From Morchella semilibera (taxonomy: Eukaryota > Ascomycota > Pezizomycetes > Pezizales > Morchellaceae), in assembly GCA_009192285.1 (NCBI GenBank), contig WBVU01000012.1, forward strand, positions 372,001-436,000: a DNA stretch of 64,000 nucleotides, written 5' to 3'. Made by a program: the position numbers and the translations under genes. Below are positions 11,524 through 58,213 of this stretch, piece after piece. Each line of letters opens with the position of its first letter. The first letter of the stretch is position 1. The notes under the pieces were generated by a model, which saw only the letters and a list, made by a program, of their open reading frames with translations, was not told the origin of the DNA and did not search any database.

Positions 11524-13387
11524 CTATAACTTCGCCTTTACCACCTCATTCTTCTTCTTCTCCTCTTGCGCGGCCTGGTCCCTCAGTAACCTCCTCAATA
11601 TCTTCCCACTCACGCTCTTCGGGATCTCATTTATAAACCTAATGCCACCCCTCATCTTCTTATGGTTCGCCACCTTTTCATCAATCCATTTGATCAGCTC
11701 CTCCTCGGTCGCCGCCGCCCCAGGCGCAAGCACCACATACGCCCTCGGCACCTCCGTCGCCATCGCCTCAATGTGTACACCCGTCACTGCGCAGTCCGCA
11801 ACCTTCTCGTGCCCCAGCAATAGGCCCTCCAGCTCCGCAGGCGGTACCTGAAACCCCTTGTACTTGATCAGCTCCTTGATGCGGTCCGTGATCCAAAAGT
11901 TCCCGTCCTCGTCTTGGTATCCGATGTCACCCGTCTTGAAGTATCCATCCGGAGTGATTGCATTCGCGGTTGCCGCTGGGTTGTTGTGGTATCCCAGCAT
12001 AATGTTTGGGCCCTTCATCCACAGTTCGCCGGTCTGGCCGGGCGCCAGCTCGCTACCATCCTCGGCGACGTACTTTGCCGTCATGTTGGGCAGGAGGGTT
12101 CCAACGCTGCCAATCTTCGGCCGCCAGACCGCCCAGGGGACCATGTGGGTTGTTGGTGAGCACTCGGAGAGGCCGTAGCCCTGCTTGACGGGGATTTTGA
12201 GGCGCGCGTAGAGAGCCTCTACGAGCTCCTTTGTGAGTGGGGCGGCGCCGGAGTTGAGCATGCGGATGGAGGAGAGGTCGTAGTTGTCGACGATTGGGTT
12301 TTTTGCGAGGAGGAGAATGACGGGTGGAACGGCGTACGAATACGTGACTTTGTATTCCTGGACGAGTTCGCAGAATTTTGCGAGGTCGAAGCGGTCCATG
12401 ACGATGGTTTGAAGGCCGATCCATAAAGAGGAGTGCATGATGCATGTGAGGCCGTAGACATGGAAGAAGGGGAGGAAGGCGATGAGGCGGTCATTCTGGG
12501 AGGTGATATTACCTTGTTCGCCGGCTTCGACTTGGAGCTGTCGGGGGGGTTTAGTTTACTAGTTACAGGTTGCCATTTTGCTGCAGGAGCTGGGGGGGGC
12601 TTACTATGTTACAGATTATATTCCGGTGGCTTATCATGACACCCTTTGGCAGCCCGGTAGTCCCGGAGCTGTATACCAGGAACGCCATATCTTTGGCTGG
12701 GTTGATCTTTGTGCGTCTCCACTTGACGCTTGTGGAGGGATCAATCAGCTCCCTCCAGTGCTTGAACTCGGGGCTCTTCTTGTCTCCCATGACGATGACG
12801 CGGTCCTTTGGAATACCAGCTTCCGCAGCAGCCTTAGTAGCTATAGGCAAGAAATCTACTAATGTAGCAATTGCCTTTGCGCCACTGTCCTTGAGCTGGA
12901 ACGCCAGTTCTTCAACTGTGTATGTTGGGTTTGCGGGGGTGATTACACCCGAGGCCCACATGGTCCCCCATATTAATGGGGGCGTGTCAATATGGTTGGT
13001 ACTTGTGGAACGTTAGTTTTCTTGGGCAATTGGGTTGTTTGGGGGGGTTGAGTATTGGGCGCAAACCTGAAGACTGCTAGGACGTCGCCTTTGCGCCATC
13101 CCCATTGAGACTTGAGGCCAATCCCGAAGTTGAGGGCTTGCTGGTGAATGTCGGCGTAGGTGAGTTGGCGCTTTGTGTTGCCGTCAATGTAGATTGCTGT
13201 TGGGGGGGTGAGAGTAGGGTCAGTATAAGGCTTCAATGGCAGGGAGGATATAATTGTTATTGTTCTCAAGGGGAGCGCAGTTCGTACCATGGTCGTCTGG
13301 GAATGGTCTACTCTCCCGCTCAAACAGGAACTGGTAGAGGTCCTTATCGGGGATTACTACTGGCTTGTGTAATGAATCTGTAGGCAT
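11524..13387 (-). CDS. 4-coumarate:CoA ligase-type acyl-CoA synthetase, peroxisomal (PTS1)
   Basis: CDS is complement(join(11524-12537, 12605-13001, 13067-13196, 13288-13387)), 546 residues. All junctions are GT-AG and in frame. It is an ANL-superfamily adenylate-forming enzyme that activates an aromatic or fatty acid with ATP and then CoA. Motifs in order: the phosphate-binding loop YSSGTTGLPKGVMISHRN, FLPFFHVYG, GYGLSECSPTT, GELWMKGPNIMLGY, KTGDIGYQDEDGNFWITDR, IKELIKYKGFQVPPAELE, and the C-terminal catalytic lysine in PKSVSGKILRR. The last three residues are AKL, a PTS1 signal, so the enzyme should be in peroxisomes. Fungal members of this family serve beta-oxidation of unusual acids or secondary metabolism; the true substrate cannot be read. 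A CCACAACCACAACC-type leader lies directly before the ATG. The retrotransposon LTR starts about 850 bp upstream. Confidence 0.92.
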
Positions 13388-14240
13388 CGTGGTTGTGGTT
13401 GTGGTTGTGGTGGGAATATGTGAAAGGTGTCTCTGTCTTTATAAGTCTTCTTCAGAGATTAGGGGAGGGAGTAGAAGAATAAAGTGGGCGAAGAGGAGTT
13501 TAAGCAGAGGCTGGATGTATGAAGAATGTTGACGTGGTGGTGGTGGTGGTGGATAGAGTAGACCGAGGATGAAGAGACCCCAACAAGAGCTAGAGTCCCC
13601 CCAATCCATGCATAGAAAGAGCTGTCGTGTATTACTTTTTGGTATGTGCCTCGGCCCCGGTGGTCGGCCCCCATATGGCACTAGCACACGCTTAGTTGCG
13701 GGGGAAGCACTCACATACTTGAACTTATGTACCTGCTACATGTAGATAGATAAAGGACTGGGGGAAGGGGGGGGGGGAGGAGAGGAGGCTCCTCCACAAC
13801 CACAAGATAGAGGTTTCACTTCTTGGAAAAGATTCCAACTCGGATAAGTCCCCCAAGTTGGGGAGGAGGAGGGCAGCAGTCCGTCCCTTATCACCACCTT
13901 ATAAAGGATTTCAAATCATTGGGAGGGGCCAGGCACGTTGGGCAGCAGCTATTACGCATATACAAGTACCTACTCTACCTACAACCCTACATGCTCTATG
14001 CAACGTTGGATTCTCGCAGTCCCTCGGGAATATTGTGTGGGGAAGGGTCAAAACCGGTTTGGGTGTTTTGACAGAGAAAGTCTGGGGTTTCCCCGAATCC
14101 CTGCATCCATCCATGTAGGTTTGTAGGCAACTCTCTCCAAAAGGCTGGGGGAGGAAGGGGGGCACGTTACATGATACGTCGATCCAACGTCTTCCGAATG
14201 ACTTTCTGTGACTGGGACTGGGAGAGAAGAAGAGGAACGT
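13388..14240. other. Promoter/leader region of the CoA ligase up to the LTR
   Basis: On the minus (sense) strand the leader contains CAACCA repeats directly upstream of the ATG (13388-13413) and a CCA tract at 13534-13552. A G run lies at about 13766-13778 and a TACATGTA word near 13739. No gene is visible. Confidence 0.6.
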
Positions 14241-14559
14241 TGTGGGGCGAAGATTAGGCAACCAGCGTGTAAGCGAGGGCTGAGAGCGCGGCTAGAGATT
14301 AGCGCGCCTTGGCGCCTTGGCGATGTTTTGTCACGTGGCGCGTTTGATAGTTCACTGCTTTGTTTCTTTTTTGCTCTCTCTTCATCATCATCAATAATCA
14401 TCAGTTTCACGTTTCATCGGCTCGATCATAGTTTCGAGCATATGAGCACTGTGAATAGGTGAACCAATCAAATAAATCAAAATCATCGTCACTAAAGCCT
14501 CTATCTAATCTAAACCTCTTTCTCTACCCAAAACCCTCAACCTCGTGTCCGCAGCTACA
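14241..14559 (+). repeat. 5' LTR (319 bp, TG...CA)
   Basis: It starts TGTGGGGCGAAGATTAGG and ends GTCCGCAGCTACA. The identical sequence returns 8074 bp downstream. TG/CA termini and a preceding ACGT target duplication define the ends. A short open frame into gag already begins inside the LTR but without an ATG. Confidence 0.95.
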
Positions 14560-14561
14560 AC

Positions 14562-14577
14562 TGGTGACCCCGACGTG
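14562..14577 (+). other. Putative primer-binding site
   Basis: TGGTGACCCCGACGTG begins two bases after the LTR. It would pair with a tRNA 3' end terminating in GGGGTCACCA. The tRNA identity is not assigned. Confidence 0.65.
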
Positions 14578-14688
14578 ATTCTTTCTCACGGGGACAGAGT
14601 CCAATTGTTTCGTCTCTCCGTTTCATCGTCGGTTCATCAAAATCTGTCGTCCTCAGGTGCCGTTCGAGTCATCAAGGACCTGAAGAGG

Positions 14689-17688
14689 ATGAGCCCGAGA
14701 AAAAAGGCTCACACCTCAGAACCAAAAGCACCGTTAGCATCACCTCCAGATTCATCTTCACCTCCCCTCACGATAATTGGACCATCGTCATCACCCCCTG
14801 ACGTCAGTTCACCACCAATCGAAACATCTCTCACAGAAACAATACACGCACCAATTATGTCTATCCCTGCAACTAAATTTTACGGCAGAGCAAATGAAGA
14901 TGTGGATTCCTTCATTAGATCGATCGAGGTTAACTTTATCCCCCAGTCCTCTTTCTATACCACGGCGGATGATCAGAACGCCGCAAAGCTATCTATTCTC
15001 AAGAGTAAGCTTAGGAGCAAGGCTGCTAGATGGATCGCGAATCAACCCAGGAGCATCACCTCATCGTGGCCAGATATCGTTCAAGCCCTCAAAAGCAAGT
15101 ATGATAACGCCGGAATGAACGAAGAAAGGAGGCGTGATTCAGAGAACAAGCTCCTCAAGTTGAAGCAGGGTAAAGATTCGCTGAAGAGATACCTAAAGAA
15201 AGCTATTAGGATCAATGAGAACCTATCCTCACAGTGGGATGATACTGCTGCAAAACGGTTCATCTTGGGCATCAAGAAGGAGAACACACGCTGCTTGGTC
15301 ATTGCAATGGGGCAGCTTGGGGACACGTATACCTTTGCTCAAGCAATCAATGCAGTTAAGATGATGTTGAGAACATCATCTAAATCAAGTAAGAGGAGGA
15401 GGCATGACGACGAGGAAGAGGAGGATTCCGAAGAAGATGGCTCTAGCGCTGAGTCAGATGATGAGAGTAGCAGTGGGGACGATGGAGAGAGCAGCAGTGA
15501 AGAAGAGATGCGACGTAAGAAGAAGAAGAAGAGCACCAAGAGGGGTAAGGTCGTCATCGATCGCGAGGACTTGTTGAAGCTCCTAGCGGATCTCAAGGTG
15601 AAGACCCAAGAAAAGCCTGCCGAAAGAGTCATCAACCTGGCTCCGGAAACCGAAGTCTACGGCGTGCAGGGGAATGATCAAACTCGAGCACCAGAAACGG
15701 AAACTTACGCTGTGCAGCGAAGGCCTGGTCCTCAAGGCGCTTACAACGCAGGGTATCGGCCCGGGAATCAAGCTCCGCCGTTTCCGAATCAGTCACACGG
15801 GAATCAGTACGGCAATCAATCTGGGTTCGGGTACGGGAATCAGCCTGGATACACAAATCAGTACGGCAATCAACCTCCGCCCGGGCAGCACGGAAATCAG
15901 TTCGGGTATACTGGATATCAGGGTAACCCGTATGGAAATCAGTCTCAAAATTCCTACGGATATCCTCAACGCCCGTTTGAACGGCGAGAATTCGGTAGCG
16001 GTGAAAGACGTCCTCCCGGTGTTTGTTACAGGTGCGGCCAATATGGTCACTACAGCAACGATTGCATTAATCCTCCTCTATCCCGCGAAGACCAGTTTAG
16101 AATCCGACAGAAGAGTGAAGAAGAGATGGCTCAGAGGATCCTGGCAAAATATCAGCCCGAGAACGTCAGAGCACCCGAAAATAGACTGGGGACAAACGGA
16201 CAGTCGAATGATGCTCGCATGAACCCTCCACCGCCCCCACAGCAAAACGCCAATTCAGTCGACTTCTGGAGAGGAGTCCCAGAAGGTATGCAGGCGCCTG
16301 AATCGTCGCTCGTGGAATGGTACGACTCAAACGCAGCGGACAAAAGAGAAGGCGGGGTGGCTTTTGGGAGCCGCTGGAATAGTGCTACTCCATCCGTGCC
16401 GCCTGCAAACAGAAGAAGACTCAGCACGACTGTAGAAAGCGAGTCTGACGATAACGAGAGGGGTAGCGTTTCACGAAGCAAAGCCAAGACGTCCGAGGCC
16501 CCTGCCTCCGCGGGAGCAAACGAAAGGGAATACACACCTCCTGGAGCGAAGAAGAAGATTCAGGCCTCCACAGTGCACCCCAAGGACATAAGAATGATGA
16601 GGGATCAAGCTGGTGAAGACGTTGTAGCCAGGCTCAGAGACACTCCTATCAGCGGGCTCACCTGGGGTAAGCTTCTCAACATCGCCCCCGCCGTCAGGAG
16701 GGAGGTTGCGAAGAGTCTGGTTCAAGAGAGGACTCCGAGCACCTCCAAGAAGACCGTTAAGTTTAAAGAACCTCCTGCCTCTACCCCCGAAGCTGAAATG
16801 GAAGACGTCCTCGCCGTTGACGCTGCTGTCGGCCAGAATCGTGCGGGTCCTGACGATGGACCAGTCATCAACTTCTATACCTACGGTAGGATTCGTGTGC
16901 CGGGTAAGGGATACTACGGTATCAGCAGGATCCTCGTTGATGCTGGTTCGGTCATCAACCTTATGCCCGAAGCAGTCGCCGAGGAGATGGGCTTAAGTAA
17001 GCAAATCAGTCCTCAGTTTAACGTGAAAACGGCAGATGGAAGCATCGCGGTAATTGATCGCATGGTCACCGTGGATCTCGAGGTAGCAAACGTATCCGCT
17101 ACTATTAACTGCTATCTAATGCCTGGTCCGGGTAAACCTGCGTACGCTATCCTCCTGAGTCGTCGATGGCTTAGACAGTGCCATGCAAAAGGCGACTATA
17201 GGACCAGCACCTACGTCATTAAGGACCAAGCTGGTAATGAATATCTCGTTCCCGCGATGGAGGGAATGAAGACCAAGTCTCCGCGGGTATCACTTCGAAT
17301 CCCGCAGTCAGCAATTGTCGATTTGGACGAGGAGACGCTTGAAGACCTGGAAGGCGGCGAGCAACTCATGGCTCAGATTATCGCCCAGATAATCAGAGAG
17401 ACGAAGGAGCAAGATGCTCTGGACACTCTCGAAACGTTCTCTGTTTCCACCTCCGTTCCCGAGTCCGATGGTACGGACTCCCGATCCTTTTATCGCCCCT
17501 CCGAGTCTGATGTTACAGACTCCCGCCCCCTTTTCCACCCGTCCTCCCCAGGGTCCAAGGTGACGGACTTTCACCTCCTACTCTACCCGTCCGACCCTGA
17601 TCCTCCCCTCCTCCCCTCACACCCTGCCGTCGCTGTCGCCGCAGGGATCACTCCTGGAGAACAGGATTTAAAAGCCTTCCGTTACTAG
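14689..17688 (+). CDS. gag: Retrotransposon Gag-protease polyprotein
   Basis: From the first in-frame ATG (14689) the ORF encodes 999 residues. It begins with a Pro/Ser-rich segment, then a Ty3/gypsy capsid-like region (FYGRANEDVDSFIRSIEVNF ... SKAARWIANQP), and an acidic Ser/Glu/Asp stretch followed by KKKKK. Next comes a Q/N/G/Y-rich prion-like segment made of GNQ units, about residues 345-425. A CCHC zinc knuckle (CYRCGQYGHYSNDC, about residue 445) binds RNA. A retropepsin-like site, ILVDAGSVINLMP (about residue 750), carries D-A-G where D-T/S-G is usual. The C-terminal 100 residues are Ser/Asp/Pro-rich. Translation ends at TAG 17686-17688, just after the slippery sequence. The open frame extends upstream into the LTR only without an ATG. 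Confidence 0.9.
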   Translation: MSPRKKAHTSEPKAPLASPPDSSSPPLTIIGPSSSPPDVSSPPIETSLTETIHAPIMSIPATKFYGRANEDVDSFIRSIEVNFIPQSSFYTTADDQNAAKLSILKSKLRSKAARWIANQPRSITSSWPDIVQALKSKYDNAGMNEERRRDSENKLLKLKQGKDSLKRYLKKAIRINENLSSQWDDTAAKRFILGIKKENTRCLVIAMGQLGDTYTFAQAINAVKMMLRTSSKSSKRRRHDDEEEEDSEEDGSSAESDDESSSGDDGESSSEEEMRRKKKKKSTKRGKVVIDREDLLKLLADLKVKTQEKPAERVINLAPETEVYGVQGNDQTRAPETETYAVQRRPGPQGAYNAGYRPGNQAPPFPNQSHGNQYGNQSGFGYGNQPGYTNQYGNQPPPGQHGNQFGYTGYQGNPYGNQSQNSYGYPQRPFERREFGSGERRPPGVCYRCGQYGHYSNDCINPPLSREDQFRIRQKSEEEMAQRILAKYQPENVRAPENRLGTNGQSNDARMNPPPPPQQNANSVDFWRGVPEGMQAPESSLVEWYDSNAADKREGGVAFGSRWNSATPSVPPANRRRLSTTVESESDDNERGSVSRSKAKTSEAPASAGANEREYTPPGAKKKIQASTVHPKDIRMMRDQAGEDVVARLRDTPISGLTWGKLLNIAPAVRREVAKSLVQERTPSTSKKTVKFKEPPASTPEAEMEDVLAVDAAVGQNRAGPDDGPVINFYTYGRIRVPGKGYYGISRILVDAGSVINLMPEAVAEEMGLSKQISPQFNVKTADGSIAVIDRMVTVDLEVANVSATINCYLMPGPGKPAYAILLSRRWLRQCHAKGDYRTSTYVIKDQAGNEYLVPAMEGMKTKSPRVSLRIPQSAIVDLDEETLEDLEGGEQLMAQIIAQIIRETKEQDALDTLETFSVSTSVPESDGTDSRSFYRPSESDVTDSRPLFHPSSPGSKVTDFHLLLYPSDPDPPLLPSHPAVAVAAGITPGEQDLKAFRY
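15773..15975 (+). repeat. Coding repeat of GNQ units in Gag (prion-like segment)
   Basis: The DNA repeats variants of GGGAATCAG and GGCAATCA, coding for GNQ, GNQYGNQ, GYGNQP and GNQPPPGQHGNQ. Composition is almost entirely Gly, Asn, Gln, Tyr and Pro. It lies immediately before the zinc knuckle. Confidence 0.85.
17667..17673 (+). promoter_or_regulatory. -1 ribosomal frameshift site (T TTA AAA) between gag-pro and pol
   Basis: In the gag frame the codons read GAT TTA AAA GCC, giving the heptamer T TTA AAA of X XXY YYZ form. It lies 12 nt before the gag stop codon. The pol frame is -1 relative to gag and is open across this point (AGC CTT CCG TTA CTA GGC ...). Downstream, CCGGGGG (17693-17699) can pair with CCCCCGG (17722-17728) in a 7-bp GC stem. 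The spacer of 19 nt is longer than the usual 5-9 nt, so the real stimulator may be a larger fold. Confidence 0.75.
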
Positions 17689-20600
17689 GCCGCCGGGGGT
17701 CTGGTAACGGGGTAGAGTACTCCCCCGGTAGGTACAGAAAAAAGGACTCCCCCTGCGTGGTAGAGACGCAGACGAGGGGAGGAAAAAGATGGGGTGGAGA
17801 AAGCCCCATCTTCGACGTTGAAATAAATAAAAAGAAGAAGAAGAAGAAGAAAAGTTCAGAAAGAGAAGGAAGCAGATGTGCCGCCGGCGGTTGCGGTGAA
17901 GGGTGTGAAGAGTTGTGCTGTTGTTCGTTGTTTGTCGGAGGTCCCCCTCCCGGTCAGATATCCCGAGCTAGAATAGTAGGGACCGAGCCGGGAGAGTTGA
18001 GGGACCTCAACGGAGGAGACGAAGGGAAAGAAATGGAAGAAACAAGCGCGGGAAGGGGTGGAATCATAGAGGAAGTGGAAGACTCTCCCTCCCTGATCCT
18101 TGGGAAGAGCAGCATGACTGGACCGGTCCCTGCCGTTTTTAACGCCAACTCCAGCCCCAGCACCGGAACATCAATCCCCAGTCCCGCGGCTGCAGATATA
18201 GCCGCAGCGGGGATCGAGGAGCTGGAGAAGTATGGGACCCGCTATCCTGCACCTCCGAAGGAGGATGGCAGTAAAAAGGAATCAGGGCTGCAAAGGCCTG
18301 ATTCACCCTCCGGATCGGGGCTACAAAGGCCCGACTCACCCTCCGGATCGGGGCTGCAAAGGCCCGACTCTCTCTCCGACACCCAAAGTGCCGGAAAGAG
18401 TAGCAACCTGGGTGCCGGCCCCCCCAAAGCGTCGGTATCACTCTCCAGATGCCAAATGAACGCTGGACCGAACAGCGCGGTTGAAGACGACAGCGAACCT
18501 CCAGAGCCGATCGACCGCCAAGCCTCACAAATCGGGGCTGAAGACGACAGTGAGGGAGTCTTCCGCGATGTCCATGGCGCCTATTACCCGCTAATTAGCG
18601 AAGACGACCGCGTTTATGGGATCAACACGACAGGATATCCTACGGATAAGCGCCCCACTGAGTTTCATCGCTGCGTCGACAAGTCTACTGAACCGGAAGT
18701 AATCAAGAAATGGTTCAGCGCTTGTAACATCACTATTGGGGAAGCGGTGGCTCTTCCTAGCGATCGCCGCGCTGCGGAGAGGCTATTATACACCTGGAAA
18801 GATCTATTTGGAGATGATCTTGGTGACCTTCCTGAATGCAGACTAGCAAAGCACTACATTCCTACATATCCTGGGTCAATACCGCACCGCGCTACCAACC
18901 CCTTGTATACCGCCGAAGAAGTGGAGTGGATGAAGGTGAACCTACCCAAAATGTGCGATTCGGGTATCATCACACACTCCAATTCGCAGTGGAACAGTAA
19001 ACCTAAATTCGTCCGCCGTAAGGACAACTCCCTCAGAATGGTGCATGTATTCTGTAAGCTCAATCAGGCGACTATCAAGTTCAACACGCCCATGAAGAGA
19101 ATAGAGCCTATCTTGCATAAGCTCATGCAAGAGAAGTACCGGTGGTATTGGCAGGCTGATGCGTCAGTAGGGTATTGGGGCGTGCCGCTAGCTAAAGAGC
19201 ACGCGTATAAAACTGCGTTCAACACCCCGTTCGGTCAGTTTTGCTACCTTCGGATGGGTATGGGATTAGCGGGCGCGGCACACACATACGCGCGTATGAA
19301 AGACATCCTTGCCGGACCCATCCCCGCACCCAATGCAGAGCCTGGGATTGCTGTACAAGATGACCAATCAGCGTTCGAATTCTTCATGGACGATGATTAC
19401 GGAGCCCACACCACCTTCCAGACTCTGCATGACTTCCTCCACGATAGATACTTCCCGAGGATAGCATGGTCAGGGCTAAAGCTCAACCCTAAGAAGAGCA
19501 GCTTCTGGATGAAGTCGTTGAAGTTGCTAGGGTTTGCAGGTAGCGGAGAAGAAGGGCTACGCCCGTCGATAGATAAGATCGGGGCAATAGTCGATTACCC
19601 TACCCCCGCCTCCGTCGCCGAAGTAGAGCGATTTCTTCACATTAGCACGTACTTGAAGCAATGGATACCGGGCCGATCAGAACACTCACGCATTCTGAAG
19701 TCTTCCATCGTATGCCGAGTGGATAGCCTGGGCCGAAGGCAAGAGCTAGAGCTGGTATGGAAGGAAACTCACCACCGATCATTTGAGCACATAAAATCAA
19801 GCATCGCCGAGAACGTAGTATGGGGAGGCGATCCTTCGCTACAGTATCATCTATCGACCGATGCATCCAATCACGCCATCGGTGCAGTGTTATTCCAGCT
19901 TATCGGGCACCCGGCAGGCACGTTAGCCACCTCAAAACTTCGGGATGCCGAGCGCATTATAATGTTCATCTCGAAACCGTTCGCTCCGGCAGAGACCCGG
20001 TATCATGCCACCGAGCGCGAAGCGCTAGCAGTGGTGAGAGCACTTGCCGAAATTAGGTGGCTCGTCCTAGGATCTCCGTATCCGATCAAGATATATACGG
20101 ATCATCAAGCACTTCTCTCTGTGCTTAGAGGTGATGAGGCAAAAGGAAGGCTAGTACGATGGCAGGTGCAGATCTCCGAGTTCGATCTAGAATTCCACCA
20201 CGTTCCGGGCACGCAGAATGTGCTTGCGGATGGGATGTCGAGATTAAGAACGCGCAAGAGTGAGTGGTGCTGTGAGTCAGCGGGAGTTGAAGAAGTAGAG
20301 AGAGAGCGAGAGCAGGAAGAGAGATGGAGCGAGTGGATAAACGATGAGTGGTATGGTCTCATAGTGGAGTATAAGCTTACCGGCGAACTTCCTGTCTTGA
20401 CGATCCTCAAAAGGATGAATAAGGTAGCACCTGCGTCAGAGCCTGAGCTATCGAAATGGAAGCGGCGCTTGAAACACCAATCAGCTAGATTTATTTTGGT
20501 GGACGAGAACGAAAGCCGAACAAGCACAGTCACCAAGAATGGCTGCTCCCTGCTTTACATCGAAAAGAATGCAGAGACGGCTATATGCGTGCGGAAAGAT

Positions 20601-21851
20601 GAAGTTAAACCTACTCTTCGCTGGGCCCACGATATTCACGGACATTTCGCTGAGTCTATCACCCTGAAGAAGCTGATCGGAAGATACTATTGGCCGACTA
20701 GGCACCGAGATGCTTCATATTATTGTCGATCGTGTGATTCTTGCCAGAGAGTTGGCCCCCTAAAGCCTTCTCAAGATCTGCTACCGATCTTCCAGCTTCA
20801 ACCTATGGATATGTGGGGCATGGACTTCCTTGGGCCGATCGCACCCGTGTCTCTAAAAGGGAACCGGTATGTGCTAATAGTTGTGGACTACTTTACCCGG
20901 TATCTGTTTGCGAAACCCGTGCCGAAAGCCGATAGTGCCGAAGTAGTGAAATCGTTGATCGAGCTAAGCCGATTCGTAGGATGGCCGAGAGCAATATATC
21001 ACGATAACGGATCACACTTCGTAAGTCAGGAAGTGCAGCAGCTTCTATCGTCATTTGGCGTGAAGCAGTATCCTGCGCCTAAATCACACCCTCAGTCAGT
21101 TGGACTCGCGGAAAGGTACGTTCAGCTAATCGTCGTGGGATTGCGAACCTTAATGGCGACTTCCGAGGAAACACGATTGGTATGGGATCAGGTGCTTCCG
21201 CAGGTAGTCCATGCTATCAACACTAGGATCATTAGGACGCACGGGTATACGCCCAGTCAGCTCCTTTTCGGGTACAATGTACGCAAGACTCGAATTGATG
21301 CCACTCCCCGCGACCAAATAGCGTCCGCGGTCCTCGCAGACACGCTGAAGTTCTCAACACCAGAAGATCTGGAAGCGTGGATCTTCAATCTCCGAGCGTC
21401 AAAACTAGAGGAACTCAGAGACACCGTGCGTGAAAGGCTAGTCCGAAGGTCTCCAGACAAGAAAAAGAGGTTGTGGGAGTCTCCTAAAGAGGGTGACCTA
21501 GTAATGCTACGCCGATTCGAGGTGGATCGTCAGCATGGGCGCAAGTTTGAGGCGAAATGGGAAGGACCATACCGTCTAGACAAAGTATCGTGGCATGGCA
21601 AAACCGGGAGAGTATTCGATCTGAAGACGGGAGCCGAAGCACGCGTGAGAAAGTCGGGTCTTCACGAAAGGGTACACCTAGACGATCTCAAAGTCTACGT
21701 ACCCCGAGAAGAGAGATGGTTAGGGCATGACGGTGATATAAGAGGCGGTCAGGGGACGAAAGAAGTAAGATTCGTCTGCGTCTGTGAGAGACTAGATGAA
21801 GTGGTGGAAGAAAGCGGCGTGATCGGTGAAGACGGCGTGATTTTCATTTAG
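17673..21851 (+). CDS. pol: Retrotransposon Pol: reverse transcriptase, RNase H, integrase
   Basis: The frame is open from the slippery site to TAG 21849-21851 and has no early ATG, so expression as a Gag-Pol fusion by -1 frameshifting is expected. Numbered from 17757, a low-complexity N-terminus with RPDSPSGSGLQ repeats (about residues 175-205) precedes the reverse transcriptase. The RT carries WQADASVGYWGVPLA and the catalytic FFMDDDYG (about 541). RNase H begins at LSTDAS (about 698) and includes YTDHQALLSVL and DGMSRL. Integrase has an HHCC finger (HDIHGHF ... CDSCQ, about 958-993) and the D,D(35)E triad in MDFLGP (1022), YHDNGSHF (1083) and GLAERY (1119). It ends with a GPY/F-like module (KFEAKWEGPYRLDKV). 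No chromodomain was seen. All catalytic residues are present. Confidence 0.92.
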   Translation, partial: SLPLLGRRGSGNGVEYSPGRYRKKDSPCVVETQTRGGKRWGGESPIFDVEINKKKKKKKKSSEREGSRCAAGGCGEGCEELCCCSLFVGGPPPGQISRARIVGTEPGELRDLNGGDEGKEMEETSAGRGGIIEEVEDSPSLILGKSSMTGPVPAVFNANSSPSTGTSIPSPAAADIAAAGIEELEKYGTRYPAPPKEDGSKKESGLQRPDSPSGSGLQRPDSPSGSGLQRPDSLSDTQSAGKSSNLGAGPPKASVSLSRCQMNAGPNSAVEDDSEPPEPIDRQASQIGAEDDSEGVFRDVHGAYYPLISEDDRVYGINTTGYPTDKRPTEFHRCVDKSTEPEVIKKWFSACNITIGEAVALPSDRRAAERLLYTWKDLFGDDLGDLPECRLAKHYIPTYPGSIPHRATNPLYTAEEVEWMKVNLPKMCDSGIITHSNSQWNSKPKFVRRKDNSLRMVHVFCKLNQATIKFNTPMKRIEPILHKLMQEKYRWYWQADASVGYWGVPLAKEHAYKTAFNTPFGQFCYLRMGMGLAGAAHTYARMKDILAGPIPAPNAEPGIAVQDDQSAFEFFMDDDYGAHTTFQTLHDFLHDRYFPRIAWSGLKLNPKKSSFWMKSLKLLGFAGSGEEGLRPSIDKIGAIVDYPTPASVAEVERFLHISTYLKQWIPGRSEHSRILKSSIVCRVDSLGRRQELELVWKETHHRSFEHIKSSIAENVVWGGDPSLQYHLSTDASNHAIGAVLFQLIGHPAGTLATSKLRDAERIIMFISKPFAPAETRYHATEREALAVVRALAEIRWLVLGSPYPIKIYTDHQALLSVLRGDEAKGRLVRWQVQISEFDLEFHHVPGTQNVLADGMSRLRTRKSEWCCESAGVEEVEREREQEERWSEWINDEWYGLIVEYKLTGELPVLTILKRMNKVAPASEPELSKWKRRLKHQSARFILVDENESRTSTVTKNGCSLLYIEKNAETAICVRKDEVKPTLRWAHDIHGHFAESITLKKLIGRYYWPTRHRDASYYCRSCDSCQRVGPLKPSQDLLPIFQLQPMDMWGMDFLGPIAPVSLKGNRYVLIVVDYFTRYLFAKPVPKADSAEVVKSLIELSRFVGWPRAIYHDNGSHFVSQEVQQLLSSFGVKQYPAPKSHPQSVGLAERYVQLIVVGLRTLMATSEETRLVWDQVLPQVVHAINTRIIRTHGYTPSQLLFGYNVRKTRIDATPRDQIASAVLADTLKFSTPEDLEAWIFNLRASKLEELRDTVRERLVRRSPDKKKRLWESPKEGDLVMLRRFEVDRQHGRKFEAKWEGPYRLDKVSWHGKTGRVFDLKTGAEARVRKSGLHERVHLDDLKVYVPREERWLGHDGDIRGGQGTKEVRFVCVCERLDEVVEESGVIGEDGVIFI
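18284..18380 (+). repeat. 33-bp coding tandem repeat in the Pol N-terminus
   Basis: Nearly three copies of a unit coding GLQRPDSPSGS occur. They differ by a few silent or single-residue changes. Polyproteins often tolerate such linkers. Confidence 0.8.
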
Positions 21852-22294
21852 TTGGCGGTGAAATTGGCGGTGAAGAAGAGCATCAATCGATGGGAGACCC
21901 TATTTCTATCCTTTCCCCTTTTTTTTTTCATTTATTAGTTAACGGCACAAAGCAAGCGGTGAAGCGGTGATGATTTTCCTACGTACTAGCTAGCAAGCGG
22001 TGAAGCGGTGATGATTTTCCTACGTATCATCTAGCAAGCGGTAAAGCGCAAATCGGGGGTGTAAAGGCGAGATTCCGTATGTTTGGTGGGAGTTGGCGGT
22101 GTTTCTTATTTCCTATCTCTTAGATAGCAGAAGGCGGTCTGCGGTGATGACGTTAATGATGCGGAGATGCGGTGATGATAAGATAAGGCGGAGATCGAGA
22201 AGGCGGCAAGTACAAAAGGCGGCGATGACGTATGCTTTTAAGCATAGGGGTATTAGCTAGAAAAGTGGAGGATTTGGAGCTAGTTTGATGAACT
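21852..22294 (+). repeat. Non-coding 3' tail with (A)GCGGTGA-rich tandem repeats
   Basis: Between pol and the PPT the sequence is dominated by GGCGGTGAA, AGCGGTGATG and GCGGTGATGA words. A 41-bp unit beginning AGCAAGCGGTGAAGCGG is repeated at 21951, 21992 and (degenerate) 22033. No ORF of note is present. Confidence 0.8.
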
Positions 22295-22310
22295 AAAGAG
22301 AGAGAGGGGG
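22295..22310 (+). other. Polypurine tract
   Basis: AAAGAGAGAGAGGGGG lies 4 bp before the 3' LTR, in the position of the plus-strand primer of reverse transcription. Confidence 0.85.
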
Positions 22311-22314
22311 TTGT

Positions 22315-22633
22315 TGTGGGGCGAAGATTAGGCAACCAGCGTGTAAGCGAGGGCTGAGAGCGCGGCTAGAGATTAGCGCGCCTTGGCGCCTTGGCGATGT
22401 TTTGTCACGTGGCGCGTTTGATAGTTCACTGCTTTGTTTCTTTTTTGCTCTCTCTTCATCATCATCAATAATCATCAGTTTCACGTTTCATCGGCTCGAT
22501 CATAGTTTCGAGCATATGAGCACTGTGAATAGGTGAACCAATCAAATAAATCAAAATCATCGTCACTAAAGCCTCTATCTAATCTAAACCTCTTTCTCTA
22601 CCCAAAACCCTCAACCTCGTGTCCGCAGCTACA
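22315..22633 (+). repeat. 3' LTR (319 bp), identical to the 5' LTR by eye
   Basis: It shows the same TGTGGGGCG start and GCAGCTACA end as the copy at 14241. It is followed by ACGT, matching the 4 bp before the 5' LTR. Confidence 0.95.
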
Positions 22634-22637
22634 ACGT

Positions 22638-25289: not shown

Positions 25290-26783
25290 CTAGTCAAACT
25301 TCATCTTAGTCCCCTTGCTCTCGGTGATGGCGCCAGTCCTCCTAACGTCATTACTGTAGACCGCGCCCGGGTTGGTATCTCTCTTATCCTGCCTCTGCCT
25401 CTTCTCCTCCCACGCCCTCTCCGCCCAGTCATCCTCCGTCTTCTGCTGCCTCCTCTTCCTCGGCCTGAACTCCTCGGCCTCGACCCGCTCCGCCTTCTCG
25501 CCTTCGGGCCTATCCTTCCCGAAGCGCTTCTTATACCTCACGCTCGAGTCCTCGCCATACTCCATCTTGATCTGCCTAGTCCCCAAGAACCTCCTCTTCT
25601 TCTGCCGCTTCGCCAGCTCCTCCTCCTCCTTCCCCTCCAGCTCATCCTTGGCCTTCTCCTCCTCCAGCGACAACCCCAGCATCGCGCGCTTCACCGAGTC
25701 GACATCCTCAAAGTCGACGAACCCGAACCCCTTACACTTGCCCGTGTCCTCGAACGTCGCCAACCGGATCTTTGCGATTGGCCCCGCAAACTCAAAGTGG
25801 CTCTTCAGGTCCTCCTCCGTCGTTGCAAAGTCCAGGTTCCCCACAAACAAGATCTTGCTCGGCGGCTTACTTTCCAGGTTCGGGCCGAGTCTTGGGCCAC
25901 CGTTAGCAGGTGTGCTGCCGCTATTGCGGTTCGAAAAGTCCTTGGAGTTCTTGATGAGGACCCTGCGGCCGAGGAAGGGCGTCTCGGTGAGCGTGAGCGC
26001 ATAGTCGAGCGCCTTCTCGTTCGCAAAGTCGATGTAGGCAAAGCCCTTGTTGCGCTTGGTGCGCGGGTCCGTCGGCAGGTTGATGCGCGTCACCTCGATG
26101 CGCTGGATTGTGGACGGCGGGAGGGTCAGGAACTCTTCGAGCTGCGGGCGGGTCGTGGAGAAGCCGAGGTTGCCGATCCAGATGCCCCATTTTGAGCGGG
26201 CCTGCGAGGAGTGCTCGGGGAATTCTTCAGCGGGCTTGGATGCGGCGGCAGCGGCGGCGTCAGTACTAGTGGTGGTGGTGGTGGTGGTACCGGCGGCAGC
26301 GACGGGAGAGGGTTTAATGAGCTTTGAGGCGAGTTCGGGGTGCTTTTTGAGTTTTCGGAGGGCCTTCTTGGAGGGGGGTTCCGGGAGGGTGACGTCGATC
26401 TCGATCTCGGAGGTTTCGGTATCGCGCTTCCGCTTTTTGGAGGCGTTGGGAGAGTCTTCGGGGACGGCGGGGGTCTCTGGGGTGGTATCGGCCCCGGCTT
26501 CGGCCTCGACTTCGTTTTCGGCCTCAGATTTTGGCTTTTCCTTCTTTTCCTTGTTCTTTTTCTCCTTTTTCTCCTTTTTCTCCTTTTTCTCCCTTTTCTC
26601 CTTTTTCTCTGTCTTTACCTCCTTCTCGTTTTGCTCCGCAGGTTTATACTCCCCAGACTCGTCATTGGCATCTGCATCTTCAGCAGCGGCCTCTTCTGCA
26701 GCCTTCTTCTTCGCCTTCTCCTCACGGAGCTTATCCTTCTTCTCGTTTCCGCGGCCCGGGGCCCTCATCTTTGTACGCGACAT
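25290..26783 (-). CDS. nop13: Nucleolar RNA-binding protein Nop13, two RRMs
   Basis: Intronless, 497 residues. The N-terminal 180 residues are highly charged (KEKREKKEKKEKKEKK-type tracts) with acidic/Ala stretches, typical of nucleolar proteins. RRM1 (about 197-285) opens with WGIWIGNLGFSTTRPQLEEF and carries KGFAYIDF as RNP1. RRM2 (about 318-400) has KILFVGNLDFATTEEDLKSH and GFGFVDF. The basic C-terminus includes RPRKRRQQKTEDDWAERAWE followed by EKRQRQDKRDTNPGAV, the ending shared by Nop13 homologues. Yeast Nop13 is associated with pre-60S/90S particles. The first ATG gives MSRTKMRAPGRGN. A Thr run coded by a GTGGTG (minus-strand ACC) microsatellite lies at 26266-26288. Antisense ORFs in this GC-rich gene are shadows. 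Confidence 0.9.
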   Translation of the reverse strand: MSRTKMRAPGRGNEKKDKLREEKAKKKAAEEAAAEDADANDESGEYKPAEQNEKEVKTEKKEKREKKEKKEKKEKKNKEKKEKPKSEAENEVEAEAGADTTPETPAVPEDSPNASKKRKRDTETSEIEIDVTLPEPPSKKALRKLKKHPELASKLIKPSPVAAAGTTTTTTTSTDAAAAAASKPAEEFPEHSSQARSKWGIWIGNLGFSTTRPQLEEFLTLPPSTIQRIEVTRINLPTDPRTKRNKGFAYIDFANEKALDYALTLTETPFLGRRVLIKNSKDFSNRNSGSTPANGGPRLGPNLESKPPSKILFVGNLDFATTEEDLKSHFEFAGPIAKIRLATFEDTGKCKGFGFVDFEDVDSVKRAMLGLSLEEEKAKDELEGKEEEELAKRQKKRRFLGTRQIKMEYGEDSSVRYKKRFGKDRPEGEKAERVEAEEFRPRKRRQQKTEDDWAERAWEEKRQRQDKRDTNPGAVYSNDVRRTGAITESKGTKMKFD

Positions 26784-27236
26784 CTTATCCTGCTGCCGAG
26801 TGATTTTGTGGGGTGTGGTGGTGGTTTTGGCCGAGGGCTCGAGAAATATTATTTTTTTTCTTCTTCGTGAAATCTTGGCAAGTTGTGTGAGTGCACGGGC
26901 ACAGACAGGTCACTCAGTGGGAAATGCATGAAGAAGTTGTTTTTCACGCATGGATTGGTTGTTTGAGCTGTCAAGAGTGCAATTGAGCTGTTTTCAATAG
27001 AGACTGTGTATGGGCGAGAGTAGCACTTTTTTTTTGGGGGGGGGTCTTTCGAACAGGCGAAACCTCCCAGGTGGCCTCCCCGGGTTTTTATCCAGGCCCA
27101 GGGTTCGGTTTGGAACCTTTTACAGCTGCTACATACTCTGCTTTGCAACCACCGAGCAGCTTCACTTCTTCATTCTCCAGCCTCTATCGCCCACTCTCTA
27201 TTCTACTCTACCGTACCAAACTACCAACTCCTCAAA
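26784..27236. promoter_or_regulatory. Divergent promoter region NOP13/Asterix (453 bp)
   Basis: It contains an ATCACTCG word 6-13 bp upstream of the NOP13 ATG, a T/A-rich tract at 26847-26866 and a T8G8 run at about 27029-27043. No other gene is visible. Confidence 0.5.
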
Positions 27237-30513: not shown

Positions 30514-32007
30514 ATGTCTGCAGAACATGGCACCTCCGGTGGAGGTGATAAAGCTCACTACAAATCCTACAAGTACATCACACCTGGGAAACAATCGCCC
30601 TCTCCCTCTCCCAAGTGCGCTGACACTAACTACCATCATCATTACTACAGGAAGAAATACCGTAAGCTCCGCTTCAAATTCCACCAGTCTATGAAACGTT
30701 CCGACGAGCTCTTCAAGCAAGAGCAGACAGCAAAGGCAGCTGTAAGACGAATACTGGAGGAAAACACGTTTGCACTCCCAATTCCCCTCCTCTTCCCATA
30801 GAATGCTTCGATACTGACACTGAGTCTCCCCCGCTTCGCCAGTCGCCTTCTTGACCTCCTCGTTGACCTTAACTCCTCAACCCACATTCCCAAAGAGCGC
30901 CGCTTCAACCTCGGTTCGCCATCATGTCCAACACCAACTCGATTCCTCTCGCCTACACTACTCGCTACAATCCCACAGGATGAGATCGCGGATGACGAGG
31001 CACTTCTTCTTGACCCCCCTGTCAATGGGGCCCTGCAAGCGAAGGTGGAAGCTATGGATGCAGATACCTCCTCGACCTCGTCTGATTCTGAGAACGAAGG
31101 CGACTTTGATACCCACAACCGCCGTGAGCGAGATTCAGATAACGAGGATGACGATATGGATGATGATGATGACCGCGAGGCTTACCTTGAAGAGATCCGG
31201 GAGACAAACTACAAGCGCGGGATCCCCGGAACACCCCCTCGGTACGTTCGCGACCAAATGAAAGCCGACGCGGACCGTGAGCGCAAAGAAGCAGTCGAAC
31301 AGGCTCGCATGGCAGCCGAACAGGCTAAACAGGAGGCCATCGACTCCGCGGCTGCAACTGCGGCCGCGGGAGTGAAGCAGGAGCCGGTCGATGAGAACAT
31401 GGAGGACCTTGACAGCGCAGAGCATCCACCTCCGCAGACGCCACCGAGGAAGCCAATCTCATTGGCTGATATTTACCCGGCGCCTGGACACACCCCACCG
31501 TATCTGCGTGACCCGTCGCCGTTCCTCATGTCCCTGGAGGAAGAGGAAGCGTTCTATTATAACATTGACGAGAACCTTGGCGGCGAGATACCAACAGCCC
31601 TTGAGACATCGCCCTCATCAAAGGTGGAATCTGACCCCCGTAACCCAATGAGTGTATACTGTTGGCTCCGGAAATACCAGCCTCAAGTATTCCTCCAAGA
31701 GGGCGAGGGCGAAAAGAAGCCAAGGGGCCGCGGCGGCCGTAAGAAGGCTGGCCATGATGGAGATTCAGGGGATGAAATCATGCCAACGCCCGCCGCAGCA
31801 CCACAATCGGCCGCAAAGACCACCGGCAAAAGGCGGCGTGCTGATACAATGAAGGGCGCGGGGCTAGAAGATAGTGTGGAGATAGATCCCCATGCTACCA
31901 CGCCTAGTCGTGGCCGCGGAGGAGGCAGGGGCCGAGGCGGTAGAAGGAGGGAGGGTGAACCCCCGGTTAAAAAACAGAGGAGGTTGGTGCAATCTAGAAA
32001 CTCTTGA
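30514..32007 (+). CDS. iec3: INO80 chromatin-remodelling complex subunit Iec3
   Basis: CDS is join(30514-30572, 30651-30767, 30843-32007), 446 residues. Both introns are GT-AG with phase-2 junctions (SYK|KKYR and EEN-T-RLLDLL). The N-terminus matches the Iec3 domain: SYKKKYRKLRFKFHQSMKRS, then DELFKQEQTAKAAVRRILEE and RLLDLLVDLNSSTHIPKERR. This forms a coiled-coil-like helix pair. The middle is acidic (SDSENEGDFD, DNEDDDMDDDDDREAYLEEI). Then follow GTPPRYVRDQM, an Ala/Lys/Glu helix, PISLADIYPAPGHTPPYLRD and a basic RGRGGRKK/RGRGGGRGRGGRR tail. The role is that of a nuclear INO80 accessory subunit; the precise function in fungi is poorly known. Confidence 0.85.
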
Positions 32008-43254: not shown

Positions 43255-43664
43255 GTGTTGTACATGTAGCCTTCCCACAGGCTTGAGCAAATCTAAAAGC
43301 TCTGGCGGCAGCACCCCCCGTAAAAAACATAAGGAGCTCATAGCTCACTATCATATACTTACTTAAAATACATGTCCATGTAGTAGTTGCAAACCACTAA
43401 AAATCACTCGCGTGTATAATTAGCAGTGAGATCCTATGAGGCCTACATACCTGAATTATACATGCAGCTACATGTAGTGTCTCCAAATAAAGTTTAGAGC
43501 TTAGAACATGTATACTGTAGTTACTACATGTAGCCACGTACGAGTTGGTACCAGCTAGCTCTCCTCAATACATGTACTTACATGCAAATTGGGGTCTCGA
43601 GATCAACCCACTCTTTATCAATCTGCCAATCTGCCAATCTGCTAATTCACGGTCCTCTATCAAG

Positions 43665-45405
43665 ATGGATGGGAATCCATCTCTCCCCACGGATGTGCTC
43701 CACAATTCATTGCCATCCCCACCAACAGAGAAAGCTGCAACCTCCTCTACCTCGAGGCTTACGGACCTGACTGCCCATGTAAGCTGCCCGGACCCCCTGC
43801 CCGTCCCCTCAAACAGCAATGATCCCTGCGTCCCCTACATCCCCACACTTCATCTCGAAGTTCGTCTCCTTCCACAGGCTTCAATTCGCCCTGACTCGAT
43901 CATCCGCTACGTCCATGAATGGCTTAATGCCAACTTCATCTCCCTGCATCTGGCACAGAACATTACCGTATTTGAAGATGCCCCATTGATCTCGGAGAGC
44001 GTAGAGATAATCACTGTAGTTGAAGCTACGGGATCAACAGCAGAAATTCTGCATCTTGATGAGGTGTTACTGGATGTGTGCGCATATAAGCTACACGAAG
44101 GGGTAGATGTGCTTGGTGGGACAGGCGGGGAGGAGGGCGAGGAGGCACCGAGCTCAAGGGTTTTGGTCCTGCCGAGTAGGGCCTTGGATGGGCTATGGGA
44201 GTATCTGGTTTTTGAGCCAGATATCAGGAGAGGGTTGTTACATTTTATATCTAGTATTAGTGAGTGGTCTAGAGATGTGAGGTTAGTAGGCAAATATGCT
44301 AATGTTTAGTTAGTTTTGTTTGCGGACAAGAAGGTCAACTTTATGTGCGTGACTTGGAATAGGCTGGTATTACTACATGGGCCCCCAGGGTCCGGAAAGA
44401 CGAGCCTATGGTAGATGCTGATGTACTCTACTTGGTTACATCAATGCTGATCTATAAAGCCGGGCGTTGGCACAGAAGCTCTCGATTCGGCTGTCAAAAC
44501 GGTTCTCACACTGCCAGCTCGTAGAGATTAATAGCCATAGCCTGTTCTCAAAATGGTTCTCGGAGTCTGGTAAGCTTGTGGGCAGGATGTTTGATGAGAT
44601 ACTGCAGATGCTGGCGGACGAGGATACATTTATTGTAGTACTAATAGGTTAGTGGCTAATGACTAGTGGTCAGTACTATATGTAATAATAGTAGCAAGCC
44701 GTACTGTTATTGTTGCTAACGGGCGAGATTCTGGGGGGATAGACGAAGTTGAATCCCTTACTTCGGCCCGGAAAGGTGCCGCCAGCGGCAACGAGCCTTC
44801 CGACTCGCTCCGGGTAGTGAATGCACTACTTACAGCACTCGACAAACTTCGCTTCAGGAATAATGTGAGAGTAGCCCAGTACCTTAAATGTACTCCAATA
44901 AGCAACTAACCAACCTGGCAACAATGGCGATAGGTGATCGTACTAACAACTTCTAATCTCCTTGAAGCCATGGACCCAGCCTTCCTCGACCGCGCAGATA
45001 TAAAGCAGTACGTCGGTGCCCCAAAGACGCAAGCCGTTTATACCATCCTACGAACCTGTCTCAATGAGCTTATTCGCTGTGGATTGATTGATGAACAGGT
45101 ATGTCATCGAAAGTCAACACTCCTCTCAAAAAGAGGAATGAGCTAAGTCTGTATAGACGGAAATAGCTACGGCCGAAGAAGCCAGCTTGACACTGTTCTC
45201 GCAGCCCTGCTTTGCGTCGAGCAGGCTGTGGCGTATCGCAGAGGAGTGTACGGACTTCTCAGGCCGGACACTGAGGAGGCTGCCAGTTCTAATGCATGCG
45301 GCCTATATTCAAAAGGAGAGTTGTAGCCTGCTCGAGGCATTGAAGGCGCTGGAGTTGACGGTGGAGGATGAAAAGAGGGCAAGAAGGGAGTTGGCGGTAG
45401 ACTGA
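43665..45405 (+). CDS. pch2: Pachytene checkpoint AAA+ ATPase Pch2/TRIP13
   Basis: CDS is join(43665-44259, 44314-44410, 44460-44647, 44743-44864, 44934-45098, 45157-45405), 471 residues; all five introns are GT-AG and in frame. Pch2 remodels HORMA-domain proteins (Hop1, Mad2) in meiotic checkpoint and recombination control. After a family N-terminal domain ([24 protein letters not shown], [16 protein letters not shown]), the AAA+ core has Walker [40 protein letters not shown], Walker B FIVVLIDEVESL, sensor 1 VIVLTTSN, and the arginine-containing [17 protein letters not shown]. The C-terminal small domain contains [16 protein letters not shown]. The start ATG ([15 protein letters not shown]) is the first in frame before the conserved part. 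It is convergent with the zeta-COP gene. Confidence 0.92.
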
Positions 45406-57400: not shown

Positions 57401-58213
57401 AGCTCCGGGTCAGCCTCGTCTGAGACCGTAATCTTTGAGGTTAATAACACTCAGCGCAGAGCGACGAGGGCAATCGACATCTTTTCAATGGGCTGTGTAT
57501 TCTACTTCATCTTGACGCAGGGAGAACATCCCTTTGGAGATAGGTGGCACAGAGAGTTGAACATCATTAGCAACAAGAGTGATCTGAGCAGATTGAACAT
57601 TCTGGGACACCCGGGACATGAGGCAAGAGACTTGATCAGTAGTATGATCGATCACAATCCAAAGAAAAGGTAATACTTAATGCATAATAAAAGCTCATAA
57701 GAGCTAATCTGAAGCTAACATCAACCAATTAGACCCGACGCTACAAAGGTCATGATCCATCCCTTCTTCTGGTCACCAGAGAAGCGTTTGAACTTTCTTC
57801 TAGACGTTTCAGACCGGTTTGAAGTAGAGAAAGATAAAGAGAAAGACCCAAATTACAAGTCGAAGTGGATTCCCTACATCGAAAGAAATGCCATCCAAGT
57901 TACTGGGGGCGATTGGCTGAAACGCCTAGATCGCGGTTTTCTCGAAGAGTTGATAGTCAACAAACGGCGAGGCTATGAGGGTGTGAAGGTTTTGGACCTG
58001 CTGAGAGCTATTCGGAACAAAAAGCATCACTATCAAGATATGAAGCCCGCAGCTAAAGCCTCTGTTGGTGCTTTGCCGGGCGAGTATCTCAACTACTTTA
58101 CCACAAAATTCCCCGACCTCTTGCTACACGCCTATCAGGTAATTCGAGATACTGGGTTTTACGAGGAGCCGATGTTCCATTCCTACTTCTCCACCACTAT
58201 CTCGACCTTATAG
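54408..58213 (+). CDS. ire1: Ire1 kinase/endoribonuclease, unfolded-protein-response sensor
   Basis: The model is join(54408-54986, 55054-55315, 55384-55566, 55619-56765, 56818-57669, 57733-58213), 1167 residues. A signal peptide (GALLWVFLVISALAVASEG) leads to the ER-lumenal beta-propeller part (DYVLLSTVDGSLYATDRKTG, RYTEWGPNNSDRDLAE, NRYIYSNYYGRIYGFEGDPT). One transmembrane helix follows (LSIVVLIFSLALYVL, about residue 575). The cytosolic kinase has GSQGTTV, VAVKRM, HRDLKPQNIL, SDFGLC and WRAPELL. The KEN RNase ends the protein, with HPFFWSPEKRLNFLLDVSDR and LLRAIRNKKHHYQDM, then the FPDLLLHAYQ end. RNase activity splices the HAC1-type mRNA. Intron 55567-55618 has a GC donor (ACAG|GCATGT). 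At the P-loop the canonical GTAAGT donor (56762) breaks frame; a GTTTAC donor 4 nt later keeps it but adds one residue. Confidence 0.93.

Follow-up and report, generated by a model that had tools for sequence, protein, structure and literature searches.

Programmed −1 ribosomal frameshifting, with its slippery heptamer, spacer and downstream pseudoknot, is well established (PMC7618472, PMC3835772), and a review describes the +1 and −1 types as less skewed among fungal long terminal repeat (LTR) elements than in animals (PMC5009743). Among Ty3/Gypsy elements of fungi, VdLTRE2/3/4 of Verticillium and RtPc1 of Paracoccidioides have a −1 pol; their protease (PR) is assigned to the pol open reading frame (ORF), and the available passages name no slippery site (PMC3441728, PMC4427930). 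Plant Ogre elements carry GAG-PROT in ORF1 and reverse transcriptase (RT), RNase H (RH) and integrase (INT) in ORF2, which are reported to be joined by splicing of an intron (PMC6317226). We analyzed a stretch of 64,000 nt from contig WBVU01000012.1 of Morchella semilibera (the window, along which all positions are counted), and in it an LTR retrotransposon of the Ty3/Gypsy type that spans 14241-22633 on the plus strand. As in the other fungal elements, its pol lies in the −1 frame, but its PR-like domain is encoded within the gag ORF; the partition is that of Ogre, but the two ORFs are very probably joined by programmed −1 frameshifting at the heptamer T TTA AAA (17667-17673), which would make Gag-Pol. 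All comparisons with copies and relatives were made within this one genome (56.8 Mb in 23 contigs). C2, C8, C14, C19, C22 and C23 denote contigs, and L numbers denote stretches of the genome (L012 is the C22 copy and L014 the C8 copy).

The gag codons at the site read TTA AAA GCC TTC CGT TAC TAG, so that an X XXY YYZ heptamer stands in the zero frame with 12 nt between it and the UAG at 17686-17688. Direct reading of 17667-17673 thus agrees with an earlier note on this DNA, which had placed T TTA AAA there and had proposed that Gag-Pol is made by a −1 shift. The gag-pro frame is open from 14509 to 17688, its first ATG being at 14689, and the pol frame, −1 relative to gag, is open from 17601 to 21851. 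The same note had described this frame as lacking a nearby ATG, and this holds: the first one in the window copy is at 18033, 347 nt past position 17686, where the gag stop codon begins, and in the C22 and C8 copies it follows the gag stop by 839 and 833 nt, close to RT. The gag ORF contains no other in-frame heptamer of the form X XXY YYZ (Y being A or T, and Z not G). Codon shuffles of this ORF gave a mean of 1.3 such heptamers per ORF, and in 2.75% of the shuffles one fell among the final 20 codons; the chance of an in-frame heptamer in the gag/pol overlap of the window is 0.022-0.036.

The junction recurs in the genome. A DNA search with 17500-17900 returned at least 10 loci, and a pattern search that allowed 3 mismatches returned the same 10, all with 0 mismatches. 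Every one of these copies retains T TTA AAA, the UAG 12 nt later and a −1 frame that is open over the heptamer. Both frames are open in three of them (the window, C22 and C8), and the other seven are broken in gag, in pol or in both. The number of pol-frame codons open upstream of the heptamer is 11-31 in 9/10 copies and 108 in the tenth; because so few are open in these nine, the shift must occur near the heptamer.

The RNA downstream of the heptamer is predicted to fold into a stable structure. A 5-nt spacer (17674-17678), which two extra U-G pairs could cut to 3 nt, separates the heptamer from a predicted 13-bp hairpin (stem 1, 17679-17691 with 17698-17710; loop 17692-17697) that holds the gag UAG. 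This distance fits the usual spacer of 5-9 nt given by one source (PMC7618472). At −23.3 kcal/mol, the hairpin ranks first in stability among 7,719 stretches of 34 nt in the internal region, the next separate one being at −16.7, and stems of at least 13 pairs (with G-U allowed and a loop of 3-12) start at 45 of the 127,880 window positions on both strands. The loop has the 6-nt sequence GCCGGG and can pair with CCCGG at 17724-17728, which suggests an H-type pseudoknot. Its geometry, read by eye from the sequence without a pseudoknot program, comprises a stem 1 of 13 bp, a loop 1 of 1 nt, a stem 2 of 5 bp (CCGGG at 17693-17697 with CCCGG at 17724-17728; −8.2 kcal/mol alone as a duplex), no unpaired base in loop 2 (0 nt), and 13 nt (17711-17723) in loop 3. 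The earlier note had named another stimulator, a 7-bp GC stem behind an unusually long spacer of 19 nt. The segments of that stem, CCGGGGG and CCCCCGG, are present at 17693-17699 and 17722-17728, but it folds at −14.3 kcal/mol versus −23.3 for the 13-bp hairpin, with which it clashes at 17698-17699, and a diverged relative on C14 retains only five of its pairs and loses the two extra ones. We therefore rejected the 7-bp stem with its 19-nt spacer as the main stimulator. Five of its seven pairs fit as stem 2 of the pseudoknot, and the other two collide with stem 1. In the modeled fold, the 13-bp hairpin behind a 5-nt spacer would be the stimulator in its place. Thus the proposal of the note stands as to the heptamer and the gag-side protease, and gives way as to the spacer and the stem.

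The copies bear on this fold as well. Alignment of the ten yields 9 distinct rows, across which stem 1 is fully paired with 12 of its 13 pairs invariant; stem 2 is paired and invariant in all nine rows, and both of its arms are retained in 10/10 copies. Nine copies have an unaltered C run in the 3′ arm of stem 2, and in the tenth (C23, 86 kb) it is one C shorter with CCCGG and the five pairs intact. The relative on C14 (L062 2258-2341) is decayed, and 53 of its 84 bases over the site are identical. It retains the position of the UAG, 11/13 stem-1 pairs (one through a double change from C-G to U-A) and 5/5 stem-2 pairs, while the bases next to the stem-2 3′ arm are changed. Its stem arms have changed less than the other columns (8/36 versus 23/48, P 0.02); of 18 pairs, 16 are retained versus 13.3 expected when its changes are placed randomly in the stem arms, a difference that is not significant (P 0.06). 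With one relative and one double change, we lean towards a conserved structure, which falls short of proof. Used as a DNA query, the C14 junction retrieved C14 alone and missed even the ten copies, so that this search is insensitive.

A pseudoknot is the probable stimulator on these grounds. The strongest competing account retains the same −1 shift at T TTA AAA and ascribes its stimulation to a plain 13-bp hairpin, or to an alternative nested fold, with no pseudoknot; we consider it possible but rather unlikely. The hairpin alone reaches its −23.3 kcal/mol, stem 2 adds only 5 bp, and a match to 5 nt of a loop within the next 40 nt is not rare, being found for 10 of the 45 hairpin starts in the window (3 of these 10 are stem 1 itself). 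Against this account, the stem-2 arms are kept in all ten copies, even where the adjoining C run has lost a base, and C14 keeps every stem-2 pair while the bases beside the 3′ arm have changed. Several observations weigh against the pseudoknot or against the frameshift signal as a whole. A nested fold at −30.8 kcal/mol, which retains 11/13 stem-1 pairs, competes with the pseudoknot. The z score of the hairpin versus shuffles is −4.7 for a 33-nt stretch that was picked post hoc, and it is −1.6 over 62 nt and −0.4 over 94 nt. Covariation is not significant, as 77/500 and 111/500 shuffles reach the observed score, the latter for the whole region. The one diverged relative with the site, C14, has lost the heptamer (ACTAAAA) and breaks 2/13 stem-1 pairs, in what is a decayed copy. 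Finally, a second source states 6-9 nt as the typical spacer (PMC3835772).

Further hairpins follow the predicted pseudoknot. The local fold scan placed a second one (6+6 bp) at 17747-17781 and a third one of 8 bp at 17787-17811, both on the plus strand. The inner stem of the second hairpin is fully paired among the copies, where one pair occurs as U-A, U-G and C-G, and one of its outer pairs is unpaired in 6/9 distinct rows; the pairs of the third are invariant, so that its pairing is untestable there. Of the five separate local hairpins that rank as most stable in the element, three lie within 17678-17816, right after the heptamer; a role in translation or in RNA packaging is possible for them.

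The copies also show several features of their own. Two copies on C19 (L007 and L008) carry 48 extra nt directly before the heptamer, and only 11 pol-frame codons are open upstream in them. Two broken copies at C23:81855-86419 share one orientation and are separated by about 4.1 kb, possibly through a local duplication. Over 16200-19400, the C22 and C8 copies differ from the window copy by 0-10 differences per 100 nt before 17900 and by 2-43 once past 18000. Identity to the window LTR is about 83% for their 5′ LTRs and 97-98% for the stretches compared of their 3′ LTRs (169 and 64 nt). These two copies may be mosaics of two lineages.

The pol frame between the gag stop and the RT region (17689-18551, plus strand), which we refer to as the leader, provides the evidence that the −1 frame is translated. 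From the heptamer to RT there are 0 stops in 299, 317 and 315 codons of the window, C22 and C8 copies, and the net gaps between the copies are in frame. The dN/dS is about 0.43 for the window versus C22, about 0.49 for the window versus C8, and 0.24 for C22 versus C8, and the changes are in excess at third positions (37/85, P 0.03; 13/21, P 0.007). In the other two frames, compared for the window versus C22 only, dN is close to dS and there are 12 and 13 stops. Judged by these substitution patterns, the leader is under purifying selection as a pol-frame protein, and selection, gaps and the absence of stops in three copies indicate indirectly that the downstream −1 frame is translated. The leader has no Pfam match, and no convincing match to it as a conserved domain was found in L061-L064 or L066; its best match, at E 0.08, covers 12-13 residues in L062 at the expected position.

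The leader also bears on the ways in which Pol could be made without a shift. A spliced mRNA could yield Gag-Pol or Pol, as splicing is reported to solve the same GAG-PROT / RT-RH-INT split in Ogre (PMC6317226). This is very improbable here, as the leader is under pol-frame selection and so is not removed whole. The usual fungal splice donor motif is GTRNGY, and none of the five GT sites in 17560-17690 fits it. A separate start of Pol at an internal AUG, through re-initiation or an internal ribosome entry site, is just as improbable. The window copy does offer its ATG at 18033, but in C22 and C8 the first ATG comes only after most of the leader, which is nonetheless conserved as pol-frame protein. 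In these two copies, then, the greater part of the leader is translated with no AUG to start it, a situation accounted for by frameshifting but not by separate initiation. Least probable of all is decay of an element in which gag and pol were once a single frame that lost or gained a base, because, although 7/10 copies are broken elsewhere, the junction is common to all ten, three are open in both frames, and the two LTRs of the window element are identical.

The protease-like domain lies upstream of the slip. A retropepsin-like segment with the motif LVDAGS is encoded in the gag frame at 16927-17133 (plus strand), judging from two Pfam matches under their curated cut-offs (gag-asp_proteas, E 2.5e-5, 25.2 bits against 28.2; Asp_protease_2, E 2.3e-4, 22.2 bits against 24.3), a shared motif and a structure model. 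These sub-cut-off matches bear out the earlier claim of a gag-frame protease. Three residues of the motif, D, G and S, are common to two other elements of the genome, L063 and L064. The structure model is of low confidence (pLDDT 47.6); its 17 best Foldseek matches are all of the retropepsin type, with a best E of 1.1e-3 and no match with E <0.001, which lends weak support only. A search of the genome with the protease sequence returned the ten copies and one weak match, the C2 element. The domain would presumably be an active protease.

We propose that programmed −1 frameshifting at T TTA AAA operates as follows. Most ribosomes would read Gag-protease through to the UAG at 17686. When the TTA and AAA codons occupy the P and A sites, the 13-bp hairpin would stand at the mRNA entrance, probably locked as an H-type pseudoknot through pairing of its loop to 17724-17728. 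A fraction of the ribosomes would slip one base back, to TTT AAA, and continue into the leader, RT, RNase H and integrase, with a single Gag-PR-Pol fusion as the product. As PR is upstream of the slip, PR and Gag should be produced in equal amounts, and the shift would hold down RT-RH-IN alone.

Two distant elements of the genome, L063 and L064 (RT about 26-30% identical), show a similar layout. In L064 (C2, 3304-3358), a Gag-PR-like frame overlaps a −1 pol by 55 nt, and G GGT TTT stands in the gag frame inside the overlap; the chance of an in-frame heptamer within its 18 codons is 0.032. In L063 (C23, 2987-3011), A AAA AAC directly precedes UAA in a 25-nt −1 overlap with pol. The chance for this 8-codon overlap is 0.009, and the case for its heptamer is the weaker one: the end of the L063 gag frame is placed by a weak match to the gag end of L064 (12/24 residues, E 0.004), and the protease region of this gag ORF is disrupted. 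A comparable hairpin was found in neither L063 nor L064, the L063 piece has no Pfam protease match, and the protease matches of L064 are under the cut-offs. A third element, L066 (C19, 1759-1801), is of another type, and its −1 overlap of 43 nt contains no canonical heptamer (one such element was examined); a D-T-G protease motif was seen by eye in its pol frame, and neither of its ORFs has a Pfam match. Given L066, routes to pol other than slippage on a canonical heptamer may exist in this host. We put forward tentatively, as a view somewhat less probable than its contrary, that the partition of Gag-protease, −1 shift and RT is ancestral in the Ty3/Gypsy lineage of this genome. It would be shared by two, perhaps three, families with exchangeable heptamers (T TTA AAA, G GGT TTT and perhaps A AAA AAC), with a strong pseudoknot in one only and, in C22 and C8, an AUG-free translated leader of about 280 codons. 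If this is true, the frame layout is old and the shift signal is exchangeable between families.

The 5′ LTR of the element (14241-14559, TG...CA, plus strand) and its 3′ LTR (22315-22633, plus strand) are identical over 319 nt, the repeat being 323 nt when adjoining bases are counted, and the flanks read ACGT just outside them, at 14237-14240 and 22634-22637, as a target-site duplication. The gag-protease ORF (14689-17688, plus strand, ATG to UAG), identified by its translation and Pfam matches, contains a Retrotrans_gag domain at about 15001-15270 and a CCHC zinc knuckle at about 16021-16065, both by Pfam and both on the plus strand. The −1 frame from 17667 to 21851 (plus strand) comprises the leader, RT, RNase H and integrase, with RVT_1, RNase H, H2C2 and rve matches. 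The RT piece has as its best match in the PDB 4ol8 (RT/RNase H), which we take to be the Ty3 enzyme, and as its second-best match the Ty3-G Gag-Pol. The gene order GAG-PR-RT-RH-INT, with the PR matches under the curated cut-offs, fits Ty3/Gypsy (Metaviridae), as do the LTRs and the target-site duplication. The element is thus a Ty3/Gypsy-type LTR retrotransposon, and the site is its gag-pro/pol junction. No chromodomain match was found in the pol protein (P0006) up to E 0.1, which gives no indication of a chromovirus. Rfam gave 0 matches in the window at gathering scores, a tRNA scan of the window with bacterial settings found none, and the RT piece had no match in one scan of IMG/VR. Of the 38 ORFs on the list, 10 were examined; the host genes recognized among them around the element encode an AMP-binding enzyme (11524-12555, minus strand), an RRM protein (25290-26909, minus strand), an Iec3-like INO80 subunit (30802-32007), a TRIP13 N-terminal domain (43521-44309) and a protein kinase (56789-57673).

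The predicted signal resembles several known ones. The coronavirus pseudoknot of the IBV type has a heptamer of the same U UUA AA- class, a short spacer, a long stem 1, a short stem 2 and a short loop 1. The last base of the IBV heptamer is C, whereas here it is A, and loop 3 is shorter here; no homology is implied. In its partition, the element appears closest, among frameshifting systems, to the avian sarcoma/leukosis retroviruses. These viruses (Rous sarcoma virus gag-pol) likewise use a −1 gag-pol shift with a predicted downstream pseudoknot and have the protease in the gag frame, with a heptamer other than T TTA AAA. They differ in host and lineage, and we compare only the partition and claim no membership. 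To find the pseudoknots of RSV and ALV, one study had to allow a loop 3 of up to 60 nt (PMC3835772), whereas the fold predicted here is compact, with a loop 3 of 13 nt next to its 13-bp stem 1. PEG10/PNMA, which derive from Ty3/Gypsy elements, likewise use a −1 frameshift with a heptamer and a pseudoknot (PMC5009743); they are domesticated mammalian genes without LTRs, whereas the present site belongs to an LTR element. In our literature search, the coverage of which left out most subscription papers, no fungal element of the Ty3/Gypsy type was seen to combine a gag-frame PR with a −1 pseudoknot, and this does not show absence. The mechanism is already known, and what may be new is PR on the Gag side together with such a signal in such a lineage. 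The locus offers a compact −1 frameshift signal from a fungal LTR retrotransposon, with ten copies and one diverged relative for comparison. Its protease-like domain is encoded ahead of the shift, together with Gag, in contrast to the two fungal Ty3/Gypsy descriptions as far as their available passages go (PMC3441728, PMC4427930), and families with different heptamers in one layout raise the question of how a slippery site is replaced while the frame layout stays constant.

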